A stretch of DNA of 52,024 bases from a virus: positions 1 to 52,024 of the IMG/VR virus record IMGVR_UViG_3300046519_000223, one strand, 5' to 3'. How positions within the stretch are numbered: position 1 is the first letter of the stretch; every line of letters begins with the position of its first letter. Of the stretch, positions 4,425 to 45,205 are shown one piece after another. The translations under genes and the position numbers were made by a program. The notes under the pieces are model-generated. The model did no database searches, was not told the origin of the DNA, and saw nothing but the letters and a program-made list of their open reading frames with translations.

Positions 4425-7400
4425 TCAGTATCCCTTTGAGATGTAGTCGATAGAGCGGCCCGACTGGGCGACTCCGCCGGAATTGCGGATGAAGACGGTG
4501 AAGCCGGTAGCCGTCTTTACCGAGACGTCCAGGTAGTCGCCAGGGGAAAGCCCTTGCGCGGTAAGGCTGACAGCAGGGGTTGCGTTGAACGGCGGCGAAT
4601 AGCTGATAACCAAACCGCCCGCGGGAACTGGAAGGTCATTTCCACTATCAATGCGATCGGGCATGTCGATCACCACCTCAAGCTTGGAAACGTCGATCCA
4701 GTGCGAAGTCAGCTGGACAGATCCGCGCAACTGGAAGTCGAACAGGCGCGCGCGATAGTCGCCGACGACAAACGGCTTCCACGCCGACCACGCTTCTGGG
4801 TAAACGTCCGATGTGCGCACCCAGAGCGACAGCGAGGCGCCGCTAGGCGGATCACCATCAATGCCGAGCAGTACATCGAAGTCCACCACTGAGTCGATGT
4901 AGGTACCGTCGTCATACAGCGCGGCCTCTACATCAGCGGTCAGTCGGCAGTCATAGACGTAGCCGAGGTCCGCCGGCGCAGCGAAGCTGTACGTCGCCGA
5001 CAGCAACGAGCCGCCGTACTTATCAATCTCGCCGAGCAGCGCATCGATATCCGTCACATCATCCACGAGCCCAGCACCCGACAGCTTCAGTACCCCCTCT
5101 GCAGCGGCTGCATTGACCGCCTCCCCGGTGAAGGCAGGCGACTCGGTAACCGTCAGCACCACGTTGGACGGCAGAGTTGCCTGCGCATCCGACCAGACCT
5201 CGGTGATAGGCCCGCCGACTCCAGAGGAGTCGACCGCACGCGCCAGGTACTTGCCCGGCAGCAACGCCACCACGGACGATGTTGAGCGCCCCGCTACCTC
5301 GATCAGCGGCAAAGCGGCGTCCCAAGTGGCCGCGGTATTGCGCGCATGACGAATGGCGATACTGCCGCCAAGCTTCACGTCCAGCTCTGGAACGGGGTCC
5401 CACGCCAGCGTTGCTACGCTGTTGATGACGTCCAGCCTCAGGCCGACTAGCGCCGTCGGTGGCGCCAGCAACGCCTGAGCGGTATAGGTCTGGATCGATG
5501 CCTCGCCGGAGAGTCCGAGCACGGACTTTGGCGTAACACGAACGGACCACAGGCCCGAGGATGCAGAATCGAAGTCGATGCTGGGCGTCGACACTTCACC
5601 GACATACTCCCAGTTCCCTCCCGGCTTCATTACCTCGATCTGATAGCGCATCGCCCGCGCCGACTGGGTCCAGCTGACCGACAGTCGCGCGGCGGCAAGT
5701 CCAGTACCGGTGTCGTACAGCGACTCAAGGAACGTCAGCTGCCCGACTGCATCTGGCTTAGCCAGGTTGACGATGCTGGTCGGGTTGTCGACGTCCGGTG
5801 TGCCGTACTCGACTTGGTTGAACTTGTCCGGGTCATACGCCACGGCGTTGATCGCGTAGGTGCCGTCGTCACCTTCGCTGATACCGATAACGCGAAACTT
5901 CTGCGTATCCAGTGCCGGAGTCGAAAAAACCCACGGCGCAGTAGCCAGCGGTGCTGTCGCAAGCGGCGGGGACACAGTGATTGATGTCGCGCCGGTGCCT
6001 ACAGTCACAGCTGCGCTCGCATAACTACCATCAGGCATGACCACGCCAACAACGCCCGCACCCGCAAAGCCGATTGGAGCATCCAGCAACAGGGTTGAAG
6101 CCGTGCTCCCCGCCAGCAGTCGCCCGCCATTACGTGCGCCGGCCCGATTGGCATCAGCGATGTCGATGATATCGCCAGGGACTGGAAGAGCACCGGCAGC
6201 GCCGACAGCAAAGGTTACCGCCTCGCTTTCGGCGTATAGCAGCCAGCGGCCCAGGCGCCGAGCCTGCCCGCGCGACGTGCAGCCTACAGCCACAACATCG
6301 CTCTGCTGGATCCGATTCCACTTGGCAATCAATTCTGGGCGCTCGACGATCTCGACCGATTGTTTGTATTGCTGAAGCGGATCATTCCAAGTAACAGCTG
6401 CAACGTTGTAGCGCTGATCCGAGGCGACAGACTGGTAGCTGAATTCACCCCCGACCACATCCGAATTGGTGAACGGAAGTCGGCTGGATCGCGGAGCATC
6501 CTGTACAGCAGTCAGGGTGCCGCCAGCCCAGAAGCAAATCGCCCTGAACACCGACACCATGTCATTTACGAGCTTCCAGGCGTCCTGTTGCGTGGTCAGC
6601 GCCAGGTTGCAAGTGAACCGCGGCTCCATGCCGCCGTAGCCGTTCGGGACCATCACGTCGCAATACTGCGCAATGCTGTACAGCGCGTACTTTTCAATCA
6701 GCGTTGAGTCGAGCAGGCCACCCAATCCATAACGCGTATTGGTCAGCATGTCGTACCAGATCCAGGCTGGATTATCCGTCCAGGCGCGGACAAATGAACC
6801 GCTCCAAGATCCGGTGTAGGCGCGAGTGACTGGGTTGTAGTTGCTCGGGATCCTGACCTTCAATCCCTTGACCAAGAAGGCCATGCGCGGAATGCTGGCG
6901 AACTGCTGCGCATCAATGCTGACACCGCACAGCGCAGTATTTGGATAGCGCAGCTTTTCATCCCATATGAGCGTAAACGAATCGAAAAACGTTCGGTTCT
7001 GGATCGCAGAGCTGGTCGAATCGCCCCCCATTCGGGTTGCCCGGATATAACGCGGCAGGCCGCCAGATACCGGCAAACGCAGATAGTACGAAAACTGCGT
7101 GCGGCTCATGGTTTTGCCATTGATCAAAATGTCTTCGCACAGCTGATACCACGCGCCGCTGCCAAGCTTGGCCTCCAGGCGAAAAATCGCCGAAGAGCCA
7201 CCTGTGTCGCCGTTTTGCGTATTCTGCGAGGACAGCTGCGGAACGCCGATAGTCACGCGGACTGCATCTGCATCGGTGTCGGTGATGGCGCGCTCGATGG
7301 GAACCCATCCTCTCAGTTCGACGCCAACCGACTGCTCGGCCTCAAGTCCGGTGATCGGCATATAGCTCTGCCACTGGGTGCCGGTGCGCGTATCGATGCT

Positions 7401-10444: not shown

Positions 10445-13400
10445 TTAAGCGAGTTGCCCGCCGTTACGGCGCTGCCGCGCGATTTCCTGCTGTGCGACAA
10501 CCTTCATCGCCTCAGCCAATTTCGCCGGATCTGGGATTGTGCTCGCGCCGTTATCAGCTGCGTCGAAGTAGAAGGTCATGGTGATCGGTGTTGCGCTGCT
10601 TCCGCCGCGGATACCAAGGCGCCCTTGCGAGTCACGAGCCAGCGGAACAATTGCCTCTTCGCCAGCCTCGCCCATCACACCGGTTTTACCATTGGCCATA
10701 CCGAATGCCGTTGGCTTGCTGACGATACTGTTGGTGAAGGCGCCGCCATTGGCGAACATCTGCACGCCGCTGGACCAGGCGCCGCCTTTGGCTTGGGCGC
10801 CCACCCAATTTGAGTAGTCCGATCCTGTGTAGCCCGCCTGCGTGGAGCCGGCAGACGTCGTACCGCCGCCGAAGTAGGAGCTCGCAGCAGTAGCCGCCAG
10901 ACCAAACAAACCGCTCAGCGCCGACGAACTGGCCTGACGAGTAGCGATGCGTGCCATGTCAGCGAGAATCGATTTAGCAAAGTCTGCGAACGACAGCTTC
11001 CCGGTCATGGCGAAATTGACGATCGCATCTTCCATCGAGCTGAAGGCATTGGTGAACAGGCTTTTCGCCTGCCCGGCCACGTTATTCGCGCTGTCCAGGT
11101 AGTTCGCGAAGGCCGATGTAGCACCGGATTGCCAGTCGGACTGGGCTACAGACATCTTGTCGTAGTTGCCGACCACGGTTGCCCGATAACGGTCCTCAGC
11201 GGTTTCGAGGTTCGCCAGATCCTTCTGATAGTCATCCATGCTGTACTTGTCTGGAGCCGTCCGGCGACGATCCAGCAGCTTGGCGCGCTCCTCATTAAAC
11301 TTGTCTGTCGCCCCGTCGAGGCTGTTTTGAAGACCTTGCTGACGATCTCCCAGGCCGAGACCATTTGCTGCTCGCGTGCCAGATGCTTCAAGCGCGGCGC
11401 GTTGGCGTTCGAGCTGAGCGACATACGCTTCCGAGGCCGCAGTTTGCTTCTTGACCCGACCTTCTTCGTTTTTCTGCAGAACATTCAGCTCGGTGTCAGC
11501 ATCCCGCTGAGCCTTGACCATGGCGCTGCGGGCATCGGCGATCTTCTGATCGATCTGGATGACCTGCGCCGCGGTCGTGCCCTTTTTGGCCTTGGCCGCT
11601 TCGAGCGCGTCGATTTCTGACTGATAGCTCTGAGCGACTTCGGAAGCCTCCTGCTGCAGCAGACTGACGCGTTGCTCGGTGTAGCTGGCCTGAGAGATAA
11701 CCCCAGCCCGCTGAGAGGCTTCGAGCTCCTTATCCGCGTTTTTGTAGTAGGCCAGGGTTTCGGCCAATACATTCTTCGCGTTGTTGAAGCTGGTCAGGTC
11801 GACGCTGCCGGCGGCAGCCTTCGGATCCTTGAATTTGTCGTTGAGGTTCGCCATGTTCTTGGCGACCGCGGCAGGATCGAGTCGGGAGTCGTTCGGGTTG
11901 ACCTTCCGAATATCATCCAGGCTTTTCTTGTAGTCCTTGATCGCCTCGGCGCGCTTCTGTTCATTGGTCAGCGACGACTTGGTGAGAGCATCAACTTTCG
12001 ACATCGCGGAAACAGCGTCTTGCTGAGCCTTAGCCGTGTCGGCGTCATACTTCGCAATGTCAGCGCTTGCGTCCCGCTTGTCCTTCAGGAAGCTCAGTTC
12101 ATCCGTGATCGCCGTGATGCGGTCTTTCGCATCGCTATCCTCATAACCGGTACCGACTGTCGATTGCAGATAAGCCAGTTTTTGAGTGAGCTCAGCGACC
12201 CGCAACTGCTCATCTTGTTCACGCCCGACGTTCTTCAGCGCATCAAGAGTCTTCGCAGTTTCGCCACGGATAGCCGCCCAGGCTTTTTCAACAACCCCAA
12301 GGTTCTGCGTGATCTCCCCTGCTCGGCCTTTTACGGTCTCGGCATAGGTATCAGTGAGCAGCTTGGTCGCGCCGATCTCATCGCCCTGCTCTTTCAGAGC
12401 AACAATCTGCGAATAAACCGACGCGGTCAAAAAGTGATATTGCTCGTTGAGTGACTTGGCAGCAGCCACCGGATCTTCAGCAATTTTCACGAACTCGGCG
12501 ATGGTTGCATCGACTGACTTGCCGGTGGCTTTCTCCATTGCCAGGGCAGCTTCGGAGATCTCGACGAAACTGCCACTGGCCAGCTTTCCATTGCCGGCCA
12601 AAGTCGCCAGCACTTCTGCGGCCGCGCCAGTTGTGCCTACCGTAGCACTGACCTGACGGGCCATCTCGGAAAGCTGCCCGGCACTGGTCCCGGCGAAGTT
12701 GCCGGTGAGCGTCAACGCCTTGTTGTACTCGCTCGCCTCTTTGGTTCCCTGGTAATAAGCGTTTGTGAGGACGGCGATACCGGCAGCGGCCAAGGCAAGC
12801 GGAGCGGCAATGGCGGCGAATCCAATCGCGGCGCTACCGGCACCTGCGCCCAACTGAGCGACGGCACGAACACCGCTACCCCAGTCACCAGACGAAAGCG
12901 CATTACCGAGTTGAACAACGTTTTCCTGCGCCTGACGGGTACCCAGCTTCAGCCGGTCGAAACCGGTGGCAGTTTTCTCCAGAGCCGCATAGTTGCCGTC
13001 GATCTTGCTAAGAGCAGAATTGTACTGGTCTTGGCTGATGCGGCCCGCGTCCAGGTGTTTGCCCAGTTGCTCGACCTGCGTATCCAGCTTCGCTATCGAA
13101 GCGCGGGCCGGATCGATTGCGCCGAGCAGGCTGTTCAGCGCCTTCTGTTCATCCAGCGTCGACTTTGCCAAAGCCACTTGCTGCTTATCGAGCTGCGCGG
13201 TGACTTTGGAGAATTCCGCTTCGCCATAAGCACCGGTCTTGGCGAGTTTCGCCAGACTCTCGCGCTGCTTGGCTAGCTCCTGCGTGGTGGTCGCGCCTTT
13301 CGACAGCGACTTCTCCAGCGCTTCCATCTCTTTCATCAGGCCGACGGCGGACTGCTCGGCGCGATCGCCAGCCTTGGTCAGCTTGTCGAGATCGGTCGCA

Positions 13401-25141: not shown

Positions 25142-25330
25142 TCAGCTCACCATGATGTTGGTCTGCATCTGGGCGTGCCCGTGCAGCAGCGATACGACCA
25201 AGCCCTGAGGTAGGCCTGCAGCCTTGGCAGCGTCAATCGCTTTGGCAATGGCGCTATCCAATTCAGTGATCGCCTGGTTGATGGCGGGACTCAGTGGCAA
25301 TGCGTGATGCAGGCGCGTTACGTTGGTCAT
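25142..25330 (-). CDS. Small phage protein behind the 36-bp dyad
   Basis: A 62-residue protein starting MTNVTRLHHALPLSPAINQA, with a helical middle (ITELDSAIAKAIDAAKAAG) and LPQGLVVSLLHGHAQMQTN. GGAG precedes the ATG at 25330. It follows the second Rz1. The 36-bp dyad at 25345-25380 occupies its whole leader, so it is the likely target of that element. The function is unknown. Confidence 0.6.
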   Translation of the reverse strand: MTNVTRLHHALPLSPAINQAITELDSAIAKAIDAAKAAGLPQGLVVSLLHGHAQMQTNIMVS

Positions 25331-25344
25331 GCTTACTCCAATGT

Positions 25345-25380
25345 CGCGACACAATTTGATGATTCGCGAAACGTGTCGCG
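25345..25380 (-). promoter_or_regulatory. 36-bp dyad element, copy B
   Basis: On the minus strand: CGCGACACGTTTCGCG, ten AT-rich bases, then AATTGTGTCGCG. The outer arms CGCGACAC/GTGTCGCG are perfect inverted repeats. It is 31/36 identical to copy A at 30495-30530, in the opposite orientation. It sits between the Rz1 stop and the gene starting at 25330. Confidence 0.7.
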
Positions 25381-26904: not shown

Positions 26905-27450
26905 TCAAGCGGCTTTTGTCTCAATCAGTTCTTCTGCATCCAGCAGCGTTTGAGCGCACACCAAAGCCTCATCGACTTCACGCTCCAGCGCCTTGCGGAT
27001 GTCGCGCCGCCAGCGCTCCTGAGTTTTGATCGGGTGCGGCTCGTTCGACCAATTGTCCATCTCGTACCACCCGGCAGGCAGCACATTGGTCGAGCGTTTG
27101 CCATCTACGCCCGGCAGCTTCGGCAGTGCCCAAGTGACGACCGCGCAATGCAGGAATCGCTCGGGAGCCGGTGAGCGCATCACCTTGGTCAGTTCGGCAA
27201 TGGCGGCATGTTTGCGTTCAGTGTGCGTCGAGAACTTCGCTACCAGCACGCGCCAGTGAGCTGCCGACAGAGATTTGTGCAGACGACCGAACACCCAGCA
27301 GTCGGTCAGGAACGCAGCCTCCTTGCCGACGATCTCCCCCTTCTGCTTGGCACACTGCACCTTTGGCTCGAAGTCACAGCCGCCGGCGGAATTGATGGTC
27401 TCGGCGGCGAGCGCCCGAACAACTGCGGATACCACGTTGCGATAGGTCAT
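26905..27450 (-). CDS. Q-position protein, possible late antiterminator
   Basis: A 181-residue basic protein at the end of the early operon, directly after NinG (4-base overlap) and before a terminator, where lambda has Q. It shows GGCDFEPKVQCAKQKGE and SAAHWRVLVAKFSTHTERKHAAIAEL, and a helical C-terminal part (RKALEREVDEALVCAQTLLDAEELIE). No antiterminator motif is recognised, so the role rests on position. Confidence 0.6.
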   Translation of the reverse strand: MTYRNVVSAVVRALAAETINSAGGCDFEPKVQCAKQKGEIVGKEAAFLTDCWVFGRLHKSLSAAHWRVLVAKFSTHTERKHAAIAELTKVMRSPAPERFLHCAVVTWALPKLPGVDGKRSTNVLPAGWYEMDNWSNEPHPIKTQERWRRDIRKALEREVDEALVCAQTLLDAEELIETKAA

Positions 27451-28028
27451 GCTGCTCTCCCCTTCAGCTCTCTTGTTTTTGCCCGATAGTCGGCGGTCAT
27501 CGCCTTCAGCTCTTCGACGGTGTACTTCTTCGGCTCATGCGGACCTTCCAGCCAGTCGACTGCTTCGGCGCCGATCCGCTTCACCAGCGCGATGCGGTAA
27601 TTGACGATGTTCCCGGACAGCTGGGTGTTGCATGGCGAACACTGGCGATGGCAATTCAGCGGCTCGAAGCGCAGTGCAGGGTTGCTGCCGACGGTGCGGT
27701 AGTGCCCGGCGTCGTACTTGCCTTGGTGGTGCCGTCCGCAACTGATGCACGGCAATGCAGCGTCACGCTCACGCACCCACGCATTGAACGCAGTCTGCGT
27801 GTCCTTGAGATGCTCGGCCCGGCTCTTCAGCTTCTCCTTGCGGACCTTGATCTCTTTGCGCTCGATCTGAGCCAGCGACTTGCGAGCCTTCTCCCGGTTT
27901 TTCGGCGCATCGATGATTGCGCATGCCGGGCTGCAGACTGCCTGACCCAGCCGCGCCGGGACGAATGAGGCCCCGCACTCTGCGACTCGGCATTTTTTCA
28001 GGCGGGGTTGTTTGGCGGCGAGACTCAT
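27447..28028 (-). CDS. ninG: NinG recombination protein
   Basis: A 193-residue NinG/Rap-like protein. An N-terminal zinc ribbon (CRVAECGASF ... AVCSPAC), a charged helical middle, and an HNH-like C-terminal region CISCGRHHQGKYDAGHYRTV ... NCHRQCSPCN with conserved Cys and His. Lambda Rap aids Red-mediated recombination by resolving branched DNA. It overlaps both neighbours by four bases. Confidence 0.92.
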   Translation of the reverse strand: MSLAAKQPRLKKCRVAECGASFVPARLGQAVCSPACAIIDAPKNREKARKSLAQIERKEIKVRKEKLKSRAEHLKDTQTAFNAWVRERDAALPCISCGRHHQGKYDAGHYRTVGSNPALRFEPLNCHRQCSPCNTQLSGNIVNYRIALVKRIGAEAVDWLEGPHEPKKYTVEELKAMTADYRAKTRELKGRAA

Positions 28029-28805: not shown

Positions 28806-29611
28806 CAGAAACCCTCCTTGCCGCGCTGAGATTCCCACTCGAACGGAATGACGATTACCCCGCCCTCCCGCAGACGATCCGCACACCGCTCGCCGATGGC
28901 GGCCGGCAGTGCCTTGGCGTCCAAGTTCGAAACGATCACCGTCGGGCGCTGTTCCTCGTACCGACCGTTGATGATTGCGAATAGCGTTGTCAGCTCGAAG
29001 TCGCTGGGCTTTTCCTTGCTAACGCCGATCTCGTCGAGGATGAGCAGCGACGGACTGACGAGGCTCGACAGGATCTGGCTTTCGCTCTGCTCGCTGGTCC
29101 GGTCGTACGTGGCGCGGATCGCTTGCAGCACGGCGCCGACAGTGCGGTACACGGCGGTGGCGCTCGATCTGGCCATGATCTCGTTTGCGATGGCCACGGA
29201 CAGGTGAGTCTTGCCAGTGCCAGGCTTGCCCAGCAGTAACAGGCAACGGCCCGACTCGGCGATCAGCGAGAACTCAGCAGCGTACCGGCGGCAGGTGTTC
29301 AGCGCCTTGTGCTGCTCGGCGGTGGTGGCCATGTAGCCTTCGAAGGTTTTGCCAGCGAAGCGCTTCGGGATCAGCGCCGAGCCAAGCTTGCGCTCCATGG
29401 CCATGCGGAGCATCAGCGCCTTACTTTGGCGCTCAGACTCTTCCGTCGCTTCCTGGGCAATGCGGGAGCACTCGGGGCAGCCGGTCTTCAGCTCGCGGCC
29501 GATGACCGAGAAAATCTTCTGCTCGAATTCACCGTGGGTTTCGCAATCGGCGGGCTGGATGCGAGTTCCTGGCGGAAGCTCGGGGGTCGGTTGTACTGGT
29601 TCAGAACGCAT
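28805..29611 (-). CDS. DnaC-like helicase loader
   Basis: A 268-residue AAA+ ATPase. Walker A G128-KPGTGKT135, Walker B LLILDE (189-194), and a zinc-ribbon-like N-terminal part (Cys23, His26, Cys45, Cys48). It fills the lambda P place, loading host DnaB at the phage origin with the O-like initiator upstream. It overlaps the O-like gene by 11 bases. Confidence 0.9.
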   Translation of the reverse strand: MRSEPVQPTPELPPGTRIQPADCETHGEFEQKIFSVIGRELKTGCPECSRIAQEATEESERQSKALMLRMAMERKLGSALIPKRFAGKTFEGYMATTAEQHKALNTCRRYAAEFSLIAESGRCLLLLGKPGTGKTHLSVAIANEIMARSSATAVYRTVGAVLQAIRATYDRTSEQSESQILSSLVSPSLLILDEIGVSKEKPSDFELTTLFAIINGRYEEQRPTVIVSNLDAKALPAAIGERCADRLREGGVIVIPFEWESQRGKEGF

Positions 29612-30464
29612 AGCTACCGTCCTCCCGCTGGATCAGTCCGTCGGTGTAGTTGCGGTCATCGAAGCCGGTGTGACGGGACTGAGCGACCGGTGCCGGGGCC
29701 GACTCGGCCATGCGCTTGATCACCCAGGACGCCTTGAATCCCTGCCACCCAGAAGTCAGCGCCTCGGTGATCGCGTCGGCGGCGGTGATCCCGGCTTCGA
29801 CGCACTTGGCCAGTTCAGCGTTGACGGTTGACCAGACGGTTGCGGTGACGGCGGCGCGCTTGGCCTTGCGCTGGGTTAGCCAGTCGGCCAGCAGTTGTTC
29901 AGGGACGTTGTGCGGGTTGTCGGCCAGCAGCTGGGTCATGCCGAACGGAGCCTTGCGATCAGGCTTCGGTTGTTCCGGTTGCTCTTGGGGCGGATTAATC
30001 TCTTCCGAAGGAAGAGTTAATAGGGGTTCTTTCTTTGTATAAAGAAGGCAAGTTGCCGTTTTGGTCTCACTCGCATCAGGTCTCAGTGAGACGATTTGGG
30101 CTGAGTGAGACGATTTGGTCTCAGTGAGATTTACAGGTTTTTCCTCATAGAAGGACCACTCGCGAATAGGGGAAATCCCGATATCACCTCGGCTCCCCCC
30201 TACACGAAAAATGATTCGACGCTCAAGGAGATGACTGATCGCTTTCGACGTGACGTCTCGGCGCATGTTGGTCTGCTTGCCGATATCGTCGGCGGTCAGG
30301 CGCTTGGTTTCGAGTTGATAGCCGATGGTCTGCCGTGCAATGGCCATGAGAACGCGCAGTTCGCGCGCTGGCAGGTCAACCGTAGCCAAAGCCTCCATCA
30401 GGCTGTTGTCCATACGGGTGAATCCCCTGCTGCTGTTCAGCTGGATAATGTTGTCGGGAGGCAT
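29601..30464 (-). CDS. O: O-like replication initiator
   Basis: A 287-residue initiator. The N-terminal part (NIIQLNSSRGFTRMDNSLME ... LPARELRVLMAIARQTIGY ... DIGKQTNMRRDVTSKAISHL) is a Phage_rep_O-type winged helix that binds origin repeats. The middle (about 110-160) is encoded by the iterons and is low in complexity. The C-terminal part probably binds the DnaC-like loader. Confidence 0.88.
   Translation of the reverse strand: MPPDNIIQLNSSRGFTRMDNSLMEALATVDLPARELRVLMAIARQTIGYQLETKRLTADDIGKQTNMRRDVTSKAISHLLERRIIFRVGGSRGDIGISPIREWSFYEEKPVNLTETKSSHSAQIVSLRPDASETKTATCLLYTKKEPLLTLPSEEINPPQEQPEQPKPDRKAPFGMTQLLADNPHNVPEQLLADWLTQRKAKRAAVTATVWSTVNAELAKCVEAGITAADAITEALTSGWQGFKASWVIKRMAESAPAPVAQSRHTGFDDRNYTDGLIQREDGSYAF
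30000..30135. other. Replication origin within the O-like gene
   Basis: Three 19-bp repeats start at 30079, 30098 and 30117, each with TCTCAGTGAGA or a close variant; a degenerate fourth begins at 30063. To their left are an AT-rich stretch (30017-30060) and a perfect 7-bp-arm palindrome CTCTTCC-GAA-GGAAGAG (30000-30016). Iterons beside an AT-rich segment inside the initiator gene are the lambda origin layout. Confidence 0.8.
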
Positions 30465-30494
30465 TACATGGCTCCCTGAGAACGAATTTTGAGG

Positions 30495-30530
30495 CGCGAC
30501 ACGTTTTGCGAGTAATGAAAATGTGTCGCG
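30495..30530 (+). promoter_or_regulatory. 36-bp dyad element, copy A
   Basis: CGCGACACGTTTTGCG, ten bases, then AAATGTGTCGCG, with CGCGACAC/GTGTCGCG arms. It is 31/36 identical to copy B at 25345-25380. It lies 30 bases upstream of the O-like gene and upstream of a possible plus-strand promoter, so it could control either. Confidence 0.7.
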
Positions 30531-30545
30531 GCATTAGTTGGGGTA

Positions 30546-30638
30546 TTTACAGAAGCGCTAGAACTCTGCATGATTCGCCTCACAGATGCTTTACGTTGTA
30601 CGCAGTTGAAGAAACCACCGGGCCTGGTGGTTTTTTTT
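30546..30638 (+). ncRNA. Possible OOP-like small RNA between O and CII-like genes
   Basis: A TTTACA / 17 bases / CATGAT promoter (30546-30574) would start a transcript near 30581 that ends at a perfect hairpin, AACCACC-GGGCCT-GGTGGTT, with T8 (30613-30638). The RNA of about 58 bases runs against the CII-like and O-like genes, exactly where lambda encodes OOP RNA. It stops about 30 bases short of the CII-like 3' end. The -10 match is only moderate. Confidence 0.45.
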
Positions 30639-30668
30639 CGCCTGCTGTTTGTTGGAATTCAGTTTTCA

Positions 30669-31094
30669 TCAGGCAGCCTTCAGCGATTCGCGCAGCACGT
30701 GCAGCGCGTCGATGGCTTCCTGGATGGCTTTGTCGCCCTGGGCTTTTTCGTGCTGACTGATGTGGTTGTCGGCGGTGGCGTCGAAGATCAAACGACCCAC
30801 GTCGCCGCATTCGGCGGTCAAATGGCACAGCGCAACCATCAGCGGTTTCGCTGCCGGGCGCTCACGCTCCACCAGGTCAAACCCGAAGCGATCCGCCCAG
30901 GCCGCCAGCGGGCGGAAGTCACGAGTGAACGCCATGATCCGATCAAGCTCGGCAACGTTCATGTTGTGGCTGTCATAGTCGGGGTTGGCTTTCTGGGCCA
31001 ACAGGGTGCGAGACGTGAAGCTCGCGCCTTCCGCGATCTTCTTGGTGCCGTGCTCGTCGACTACGTCGTAGATGGCTCTCATCAGTGATTGCAT
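30669..31094 (-). CDS. CII-family phage regulatory protein
   Basis: A 141-residue DNA-binding protein of the Phage_CP76/CII-like type: SLMRAIYDVVDEHGTKKIAEG at the N terminus, FTSRTLLAQKANPDYDSHNM (helix-turn-helix) and AFTRDFRPLAAWADRFGF. GGGGTG precedes the ATG. It lies between Cro-side genes and O, as cII does, so it probably decides between lysis and lysogeny. Palindromic operators stand upstream at 31193-31261. Confidence 0.85.
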   Translation of the reverse strand: MQSLMRAIYDVVDEHGTKKIAEGASFTSRTLLAQKANPDYDSHNMNVAELDRIMAFTRDFRPLAAWADRFGFDLVERERPAAKPLMVALCHLTAECGDVGRLIFDATADNHISQHEKAQGDKAIQEAIDALHVLRESLKAA

Positions 31095-31192
31095 GTAACA
31101 CCCCGAAAATCGTTACGTGGCGTCGAGCCACTACTTTGGAGAAACTCTGTTCATCAACTGATCAGGGACGAATCCATGACCTTCTGTTCTTC

Positions 31193-31261
31193 TTGGCCCC
31201 TTATTAGGTGCCAACTCCGCTTGGCCCAATCGCTACTGCGCTGGCCCCTAATAAGGGGCCA
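31193..31261. promoter_or_regulatory. Paired palindromic operators upstream of the CII-like gene
   Basis: TGGCCCCT-AATA-AGGGGCCA (31242-31261) is perfect. TTGGCCCCT-TATT-AGGTGCCAA (31193-31214) has one mismatch and the central bases inverted. A TTGGCCCAA site (31221-31229) lies between. Two matching dyads in a short leader make a repressor target; the binding protein is not known. Confidence 0.7.
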
Positions 31262-31266
31262 GACCG

Positions 31267-31518
31267 TTACCTCACGGGGAAAATTGAAACCACGTTTCCT
31301 GTCTGCGCCTCTTGTGCGCAGTGATCAGCGAGGCGTCTTCGCAAGGTTGTTTTATCCGCTGCGAGGCGAGCAGCACTGCGCCGCTCGACCGCCCGCTCTG
31401 TCATTTGCAAAATCCGGTCAGCGAGTTGATCCATGCCGATACCAACCTCGTCAGCCCAGCGCTCAAGCTCGTCCTTCTCGTCCTGCGTGTACTGCCCTGC
31501 TTCGGGTATTGCGGACAT
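31267..31518 (-). CDS. Small helical protein in the early regulatory region
   Basis: An 83-residue protein, MSAIPEAGQYTQDEKDELER ... HCAQEAQTGNVVSIFPVR, rich in charged helix. GGAGGAGG precedes the ATG at 31518. It lies between the RHH-like gene and the operators. It may be a small regulator; no family is recognised. Confidence 0.65.
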   Translation of the reverse strand: MSAIPEAGQYTQDEKDELERWADEVGIGMDQLADRILQMTERAVERRSAARLAADKTTLRRRLADHCAQEAQTGNVVSIFPVR

Positions 31519-44896: not shown

Positions 44897-45205
44897 ATGG
44901 CCAAGAGCAACGCGGACATTCAGAAGGACAAACGCGCCAAGGAGCGTGCCCTGCTGGATCGGATCGGCGCCGAGAAGCGCACGCTGATTGTGTCGAAAGC
45001 GCTGGTTGATGCACTTCAGGTGCTTGGCGAGCGCCACGACTTCGAGGAATGGCAGGAGACGGTGTCGACGTTCCTGATCAACCTAGCTTCCGAGCCCGCC
45101 GAAGAGTCCGCCCGCTTCGCCATCATGTCGCGACCTGAAATCATTGTTAAGGAAAAGTGGTCGCGACAGCTTGAAGAGTTCGCGAAGACCGGCATCGAAG
45201 CCTGA
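44897..45205 (+). CDS. Small helical protein
   Basis: A 102-residue protein, MAKSNADIQKDKRAKERALL ... LVDALQVLGERHDFEEWQET. AGAGG precedes the ATG. A basic N terminus and a helical core give a ribbon-helix-helix-like impression (KRTLIVSKALVDALQVLGER), so a small DNA-binding protein is possible. Confidence 0.68.
   Translation: MAKSNADIQKDKRAKERALLDRIGAEKRTLIVSKALVDALQVLGERHDFEEWQETVSTFLINLASEPAEESARFAIMSRPEIIVKEKWSRQLEEFAKTGIEA

Follow-up and report, generated by a model that had tools for sequence, protein, structure and literature searches.

A 36-bp Dyad Occurs Twice in the Phage Genome

The DNA analyzed was IMG/VR virus record IMGVR_UViG_3300046519_000223, positions 1 to 52,024, and this whole stretch of 52,024 nt is called the window here. 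It harbors two copies of a 36-bp dyad (A and B) and a degenerate third site (C), together with the following features:

25142–25330, minus strand: gene for a 62-aa protein (phrog_15190), following copy B
25345–25380, minus strand: copy B, 36-bp dyad CGCGACACGTTTCGCGAATCATCAAATTGTGTCGCG of the "AT" arm type, beginning 2 nt past the Rz1 stop codon
25383–25658, minus strand: Rz1-like gene, ending 2 nt before copy B
27447–28028, minus strand: gene located between A and B and coding for NinG (Rap-type endonuclease family)
29601–30464, minus strand: gene for the replication initiator O (Phage_rep_O), downstream of A
30464–30571, minus strand: leader reading frame of 35 aa, MQSSSASVNTPTNAATHFHYSQNVSRLKIRSQGAM followed by a stop, running through A and ending in a TAA that overlaps with the start codon of O (TAATG)
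30495–30530, plus strand: copy A, 36-bp dyad CGCGACACGTTTTGCGAGTAATGAAAATGTGTCGCG of the "AT" arm type, in the cII–O gap
30546–30574, plus strand: OOP-like promoter (−35 TTTACA at 30546–30551, 17 bp, −10 CATGAT at 30569–30574), directed from A towards cII
30612–30639, plus strand: intrinsic terminator of the OOP-like short RNA of about 55 nt, between A and cII
30669–31094, minus strand: cII gene upstream of A, with a product of the Phage_CP76 family (186-CII type)
44897–45205, plus strand: gene for the ribbon-helix-helix (RHH)-like phrog_5439 protein, with site C in its 3' end
45128–45166, plus strand: degenerate third site C, TCGCGACC-N23-GGTCGCGA, within the 3' end of the phrog_5439 gene

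The coordinates of A and B, reported in an earlier note on this DNA, were correct; the 8-bp outer arms are exact and identical in both copies, and A (plus strand) and B (minus strand) agree in 31 of 36 bases. The CATT described behind both copies was also found, preceded by G in A (GCATT) and by A in B (ACATT). Exact dyad matches in the window were limited to A and B. The next listed match carried 3 mismatches; the expected number of matches this loose is 0.74. The half-site is CGCG[A/C]CACGTTT, present in inverted orientation with a fixed span of 36 bp, and its inner pair (9/28 of the dyad) is often unpaired. This length is rigid: among the IMG/VR copies no span was shorter than 36 bp and two were longer, both with 37 bp (+1).

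The Dyad Is Nearly Confined to Mobile DNA of Pseudomonas

A search with the arms and a free 20-bp interior retrieved at least 120 IMG/VR stretches, nearly all of which shared interior bases. A dyad of either arm type was present in 114 of 399 Pseudomonas genomes, while the reversed control pattern was present in 0 of 399. Positive genomes had 1–6 copies, typically as pairs 5–10 kb apart within one prophage. Among GTDB contigs, 119 stretches fitted a stricter pattern, and the named ones were all from Pseudomonas except for one contig filed under Streptomyces. This 8.4 kb contig (L158, Streptomyces sp. IBSBF 2953) resembles a Pseudomonas prophage fragment and probably represents assembly contamination. 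A search of a plasmid collection gave no real match, and a literature search on the motif found nothing relevant. Random scatter over unrelated genomes, or arms that differ between related phages, had been named as observations that would speak against the element. The dyad was instead nearly confined to Pseudomonas mobile DNA, with conserved arms.

Named phage records with the dyad are phiAH14a, PseuP_222 and phiAH14b, a putative satellite of phiAH14a (PMC4936722). The satellite (L406) has a CG-type dyad at 10506–10541 and a lone half-site at 4716, which codes for ENVAR at the end of another gene. Its helper phiAH14a mixes arm types: the A-like site is of the CG type, whereas B is of the AT type. 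In another class (L147, L150, L151, L153, L176, L192, L228, L231), the dyads lie beside the composite repeat CCTGACCTCCCATTTCGGTAGGGCAGGTGT; these loci resemble accessory genomic islands more than lambdoid prophages. An integrase gene is located near the dyad in L178, L193 and L128, and in L178 the dyad lies directly upstream of an excisionase-like gene.

Two Matched Arm Types Exist

The dyads fall into an "AT" arm type, CGCGACAC/GTGTCGCG, and a "CG" arm type, CGCGCCAC/GTGGCGCG, which is fully compensated. Each was found in at least 120 IMG/VR stretches. In the search for the CG type all 128 of 128 copies were compensated, although the pattern permitted nine combinations. Mixed arms occurred in only 9 cases in IMG/VR, and G/C or T/A at the variable arm pair was never seen in an IMG/VR search with a somewhat stricter interior pattern.

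A and B had the same arm type in 26 of 28 host prophages (exceptions: P26 and P27). Further exceptions were phiAH14a and two or three IMG/VR loci that mix types. The type at C matched that at A and B in 20 of 23 prophages. In a gyrB tree the arm type tracked the host subgroup, with mixed genomes present, and 10 of 50 genomes with at least two copies had both types together. Since the arm type tracks the host subgroup, the agreement within a phage may partly reflect population structure. The two arm types would represent two recognition and exchange groups.

Site A Lies within a Leader Reading Frame and beside an OOP-like Unit

Copy A is found at the homologous position in 149 relatives. It sits within the O leader, and a sigma70-like promoter and a terminator lie immediately downstream of it, as the earlier note had suspected. 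In relatives a sigma70-like promoter with a spacing of 16–17 bp was present at a fixed offset from A (171 at the main offsets, compared to 4 of 844 control windows). A strict test detected a terminator beyond this promoter in 82 of 150 loci and in 12 of 149 controls; this test visibly missed many. In lambda, the OOP RNA unit (PMC5869508) consists of pO/tO between cII and O. The unit in the window is likewise a short antisense unit between these genes and directed at cII, but differs in its predicted transcript of about 45–60 nt and in a promoter that overlaps the start codon of the leader frame. We know of no such dyad in lambda.

It had been overlooked that A is inside a reading frame. This applied to 149 of 149 loci, with the frame on the strand opposite to the OOP-like promoter. 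The leader ATG precedes the dyad by 38–53 nt and in most cases falls on the complement of the −10 box; the leader peptide follows the pattern M..NTP..VATRF....NV[SA]R. In 122 of the 149 loci the frame reads on into the downstream protein. We counted 45 different tails behind the leader, including Rha, Bro-N, ANT and KilA-N proteins; a match to T5orf172 was marginal. Within O, GTCTCAGTGAGAC-type repeats at about 30064–30129 are candidate iterons, and their sequence is unlike the dyad.

A Third Site Is Located at the End of the phrog_5439 Gene

Site C had also escaped the first inspection. Relatives hold an intact 37-bp version of it at the 3' end of the RHH-like phrog_5439 gene, where it codes for PRHE.....ENV[SA]R. 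The Arg codon was CGA with the partner TCG in 10 of 10 cases and CGC with the partner GCG in 14 of 14 cases, so that the Arg codon completed the palindrome in 24 of 24. A sequence pattern and a helical AlphaFold model mark the phrog_5439 protein as RHH-like. Its predicted fold had no significant match in the PDB, and the best non-significant matches include many RHH-type folds.

Site B Is Locked to a Stop Codon and Precedes a Possible Cargo Slot

Copy B had been described as filling the leader of a small gene. It does lie in the gap that separates the stop codon of Rz1 from the start of the 62-aa gene. Copy B lacks a promoter and does not represent a normal operator; neither at B nor at C was a promoter found at the offset that corresponds to the promoter at A. 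A stop codon was positioned exactly 2 nt before the dyad in 144 of 228 non-A copies, and 128 of these 144 stops terminate a frame of at least 45 codons. In relatives the slot after B is often occupied by an Acb2/Tad1-hairpin gene (PF24729, anti-CBASS type), for example in L124, L130 and L146. These frequent occupants suggest that it is a slot for anti-defense cargo, and in the window the phrog_15190 gene may likewise represent cargo of this kind.

Selection Acts on the DNA Rather than on the Peptide

For an unbiased codon test, 80 loci were fetched by homology to the Rha protein; 55 of them were unique and had the leader peptide. The arms were perfect in 52 of the 55. Not a single synonymous change was found at the fourfold-degenerate arm codons across these loci: Ala was always GCG (55/55), Val GTG (55/55), Thr ACA (40/40), Pro CCA (15/15) and Ser TCG (39/39). 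The left arm is read in different frames at C and A, and the palindrome is nonetheless kept. The lack of synonymous arm codons and the maintenance of the palindrome across frames showed that the constraint acts at the level of the DNA and not of the peptide. We concluded that the dyad is a real, widespread and strongly constrained element.

Module Breakpoints Coincide with the Dyads

Pairs of loci that are similar on one side of B were unrelated on the other side in 76–77% of cases. For A this value was 33–71%, depending on the direction (0.33/0.71). At a distance of 100–500 bp from the dyads the same mismatch measure was mostly 0–5%, with off-dyad peaks for A of 0.56 at +100 (one direction) and about 0.25 at −300/−400, and for B of up to 0.21.

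The breakpoints were spread over the arms and the interior of the dyad and did not define a single crossover point. The core sites of loxP/dif-type tyrosine recombinases consist of inverted arms of about 13 bp and a short variable spacer of fixed length. The dyad shares the inverted arms and the fixed-length spacer; its breakpoints do not appear to be confined to the spacer. This spread speaks against the action of a classical site-specific recombinase and is compatible with plain homologous recombination at a conserved operator.

Candidate Binding Proteins

The genes that co-occurred best with the dyad were those for NinG (odds 9.6 at the genome level) and phrog_5439 (odds 6.4). They were near-universal in the prophages examined, being present in 30 and 29, respectively, of 31 dyad-bearing phages, while 24 of 114 dyad-bearing genomes lacked both. 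The NinG sequence does not track the arm type, and the predicted strand residues of phrog_5439 vary widely and do not track it either. Both are unproven candidate binders. A host-encoded factor may be a further candidate, as the arm type tracks the host subgroup, yet the two types co-reside in the 10 of 50 multi-copy genomes mentioned above.

The other proteins considered did not qualify as general binders. Of the 82 A loci flanked by more than 3 kb of sequence, only 37 had CII (PF06892), which the earlier note had suggested. Rha was found in 21 of 50 records and is absent from the window. For O, its own iterons in the window differ from the dyad, and a satellite with no O in its annotation carries the dyad as well.

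Discussion

Joining of phage modules is usually credited to illegitimate or relaxed homologous recombination plus selection, and how modules are joined without gene breakage is an old question. Here such joints are marked, in hundreds of Pseudomonas phages, by one palindromic word that is conserved at the DNA level within coding sequence. In lambdoid coliphages, the mosaic joints carry boundary (linker) sequences, which are short and conserved and where unrelated modules meet. The dyad resembles them as a short conserved sequence at module joints, at which the similarity of genome pairs starts or stops. It differs from them in that a single palindromic word, whose arms come as two matched alleles, recurs at three places and is under DNA-level selection inside genes. 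Its conservation exceeds mere homology without further DNA structure, as the arms are matched and the palindrome is kept via synonymous codons. Homeologous recombination by Red-type enzymes is described in PMC2327257.

The analysis showed DNA-level selection, matched arms, a rigid length, the frame lock, a location at breakpoints and the presence in a satellite. The earlier note had proposed one protein that links the early and late programs. A shared trans-acting protein is indeed the simplest reading, since the arms are matched, the length is rigid, and A and B agree in type. However, the coincidence with breakpoints, the third site and the occurrence in the satellite and in islands indicate that the link is not only one of early to late; a pure regulatory link would not predict that the sites coincide with module breakpoints.

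The reading that we favor, with a confidence just short of even, is that the dyads are DNA sites of one symmetric protein and double as joints for module exchange. Each dyad would consist of two identical inverted half-sites recognized by one symmetric DNA-binding protein, and lambdoid phages of Pseudomonas would have about one site per region, with C in the early-left region, A in the cII–O gap and B where lysis genes give way to head genes. At these joints phages and the satellite would exchange modules. Recombination between two dyads would spare the 12-codon unit, the frame and the neighboring stop codon, and antirepressor domains, tails of RHH proteins and cargo genes could thereby be attached without damage. 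The protein would originate from the phage or the helper, and it may promote exchange rather than only regulate, with exchange as a by-product. The exact placement of the element at joints, in frame and beside stop codons, makes module exchange a more plausible role than that of a plain operator. Viral regulators with Rha, Bro-N, KilA-N and ANT domains are known for domain shuffling; the same families are swapped here, but the place in the DNA where the N-terminal leader is joined and exchanged has become visible. The two matched alleles, together with silent mutations, make the questions of the binder and of exchange testable. The system would show a connection between satellite and helper and the swapping of anti-defense cargo (Acb2/Tad1-type, after B).

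We regard it as doubtful, though worth considering, that the dyads belong to a dedicated exchange system, in which a symmetric protein encoded by the phage or helper, possibly with NinG or the RHH-like phrog_5439 protein, would use one site per region and promote swaps in which prophages and satellites trade domains and cargo with the frame preserved; the arm alleles would serve as compatibility groups of host subgroups.

An ordinary operator is a rather unlikely explanation that nevertheless deserves serious attention. By binding the dyad, a phage regulator would govern both the OOP-like promoter at A and the transcription that runs past B and C, and breakpoints would lie there only because this is the one sequence common to the phages. 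The promoter and terminator at fixed offset from A are consistent with this, a site for a dimer or tetramer would fit the matched arms and the rigid length, and a satellite would gain by sensing the regulator of its helper. However, no promoter is present at the corresponding offset from B or C, C lies within the 3' end of a gene, B is locked 2 nt past a stop codon, and neither CII nor Rha is universal.

We consider it improbable that the dyad acts as an RNA hairpin in the mRNA of each operon (as attenuator, processing site or antitermination signal), with folding controlled by translation of the leader or of Rz1. The arms can form a stable RNA stem (−12 to −13 kcal/mol), and the ribosome would have fixed positions relative to this stem at both A and B. 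Such a hairpin would not explain why the length of the 20-nt interior is almost constant in hundreds of copies, why no G-U intermediates between the arm types were seen, why pair 9/28 is often unpaired, and why the homology of A and B runs in opposite orientations relative to their transcripts; in addition, no Rfam family matched in the window.

A selfish palindromic element that inserts in frame and has no phage function, like Rickettsia palindromic elements or REPINs, would fit the in-frame residence in unrelated genes, the palindromic structure and the island copies, but is very doubtful given the 1–6 copies per genome at mostly a few homologous positions, the matching of arm types per phage and the lack of synonymous decay. 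Rickettsia palindromic elements reside in frame within genes, and the dyad shares with them the palindrome in frame within unrelated proteins; its copies are found at a few homologous positions. The REPIN/RAYT repeats of P. fluorescens are also palindromic units (PMC3390384). In contrast to both, the dyads have low copy number, fixed homologous positions, matched arm alleles and no known link to a transposase, and unlike the high-copy, extragenic REPINs they often lie in genes.

The operator of phage 186 CII (Phage_CP76 family) consists of widely spaced inverted half-sites. The dyad is alike in this respect, and the CII of the window belongs to the same family, but the half-sites and their spacing differ, and a CII gene is absent beside more than half of the A dyads. 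Between the gene for an 88-aa protein and cII (31094–31267), the window harbors the inverted repeats GGCCCCTTATTAGGTGCC / GGCCCCTAATAAGGGGCC, at which a further regulator may have its operator.
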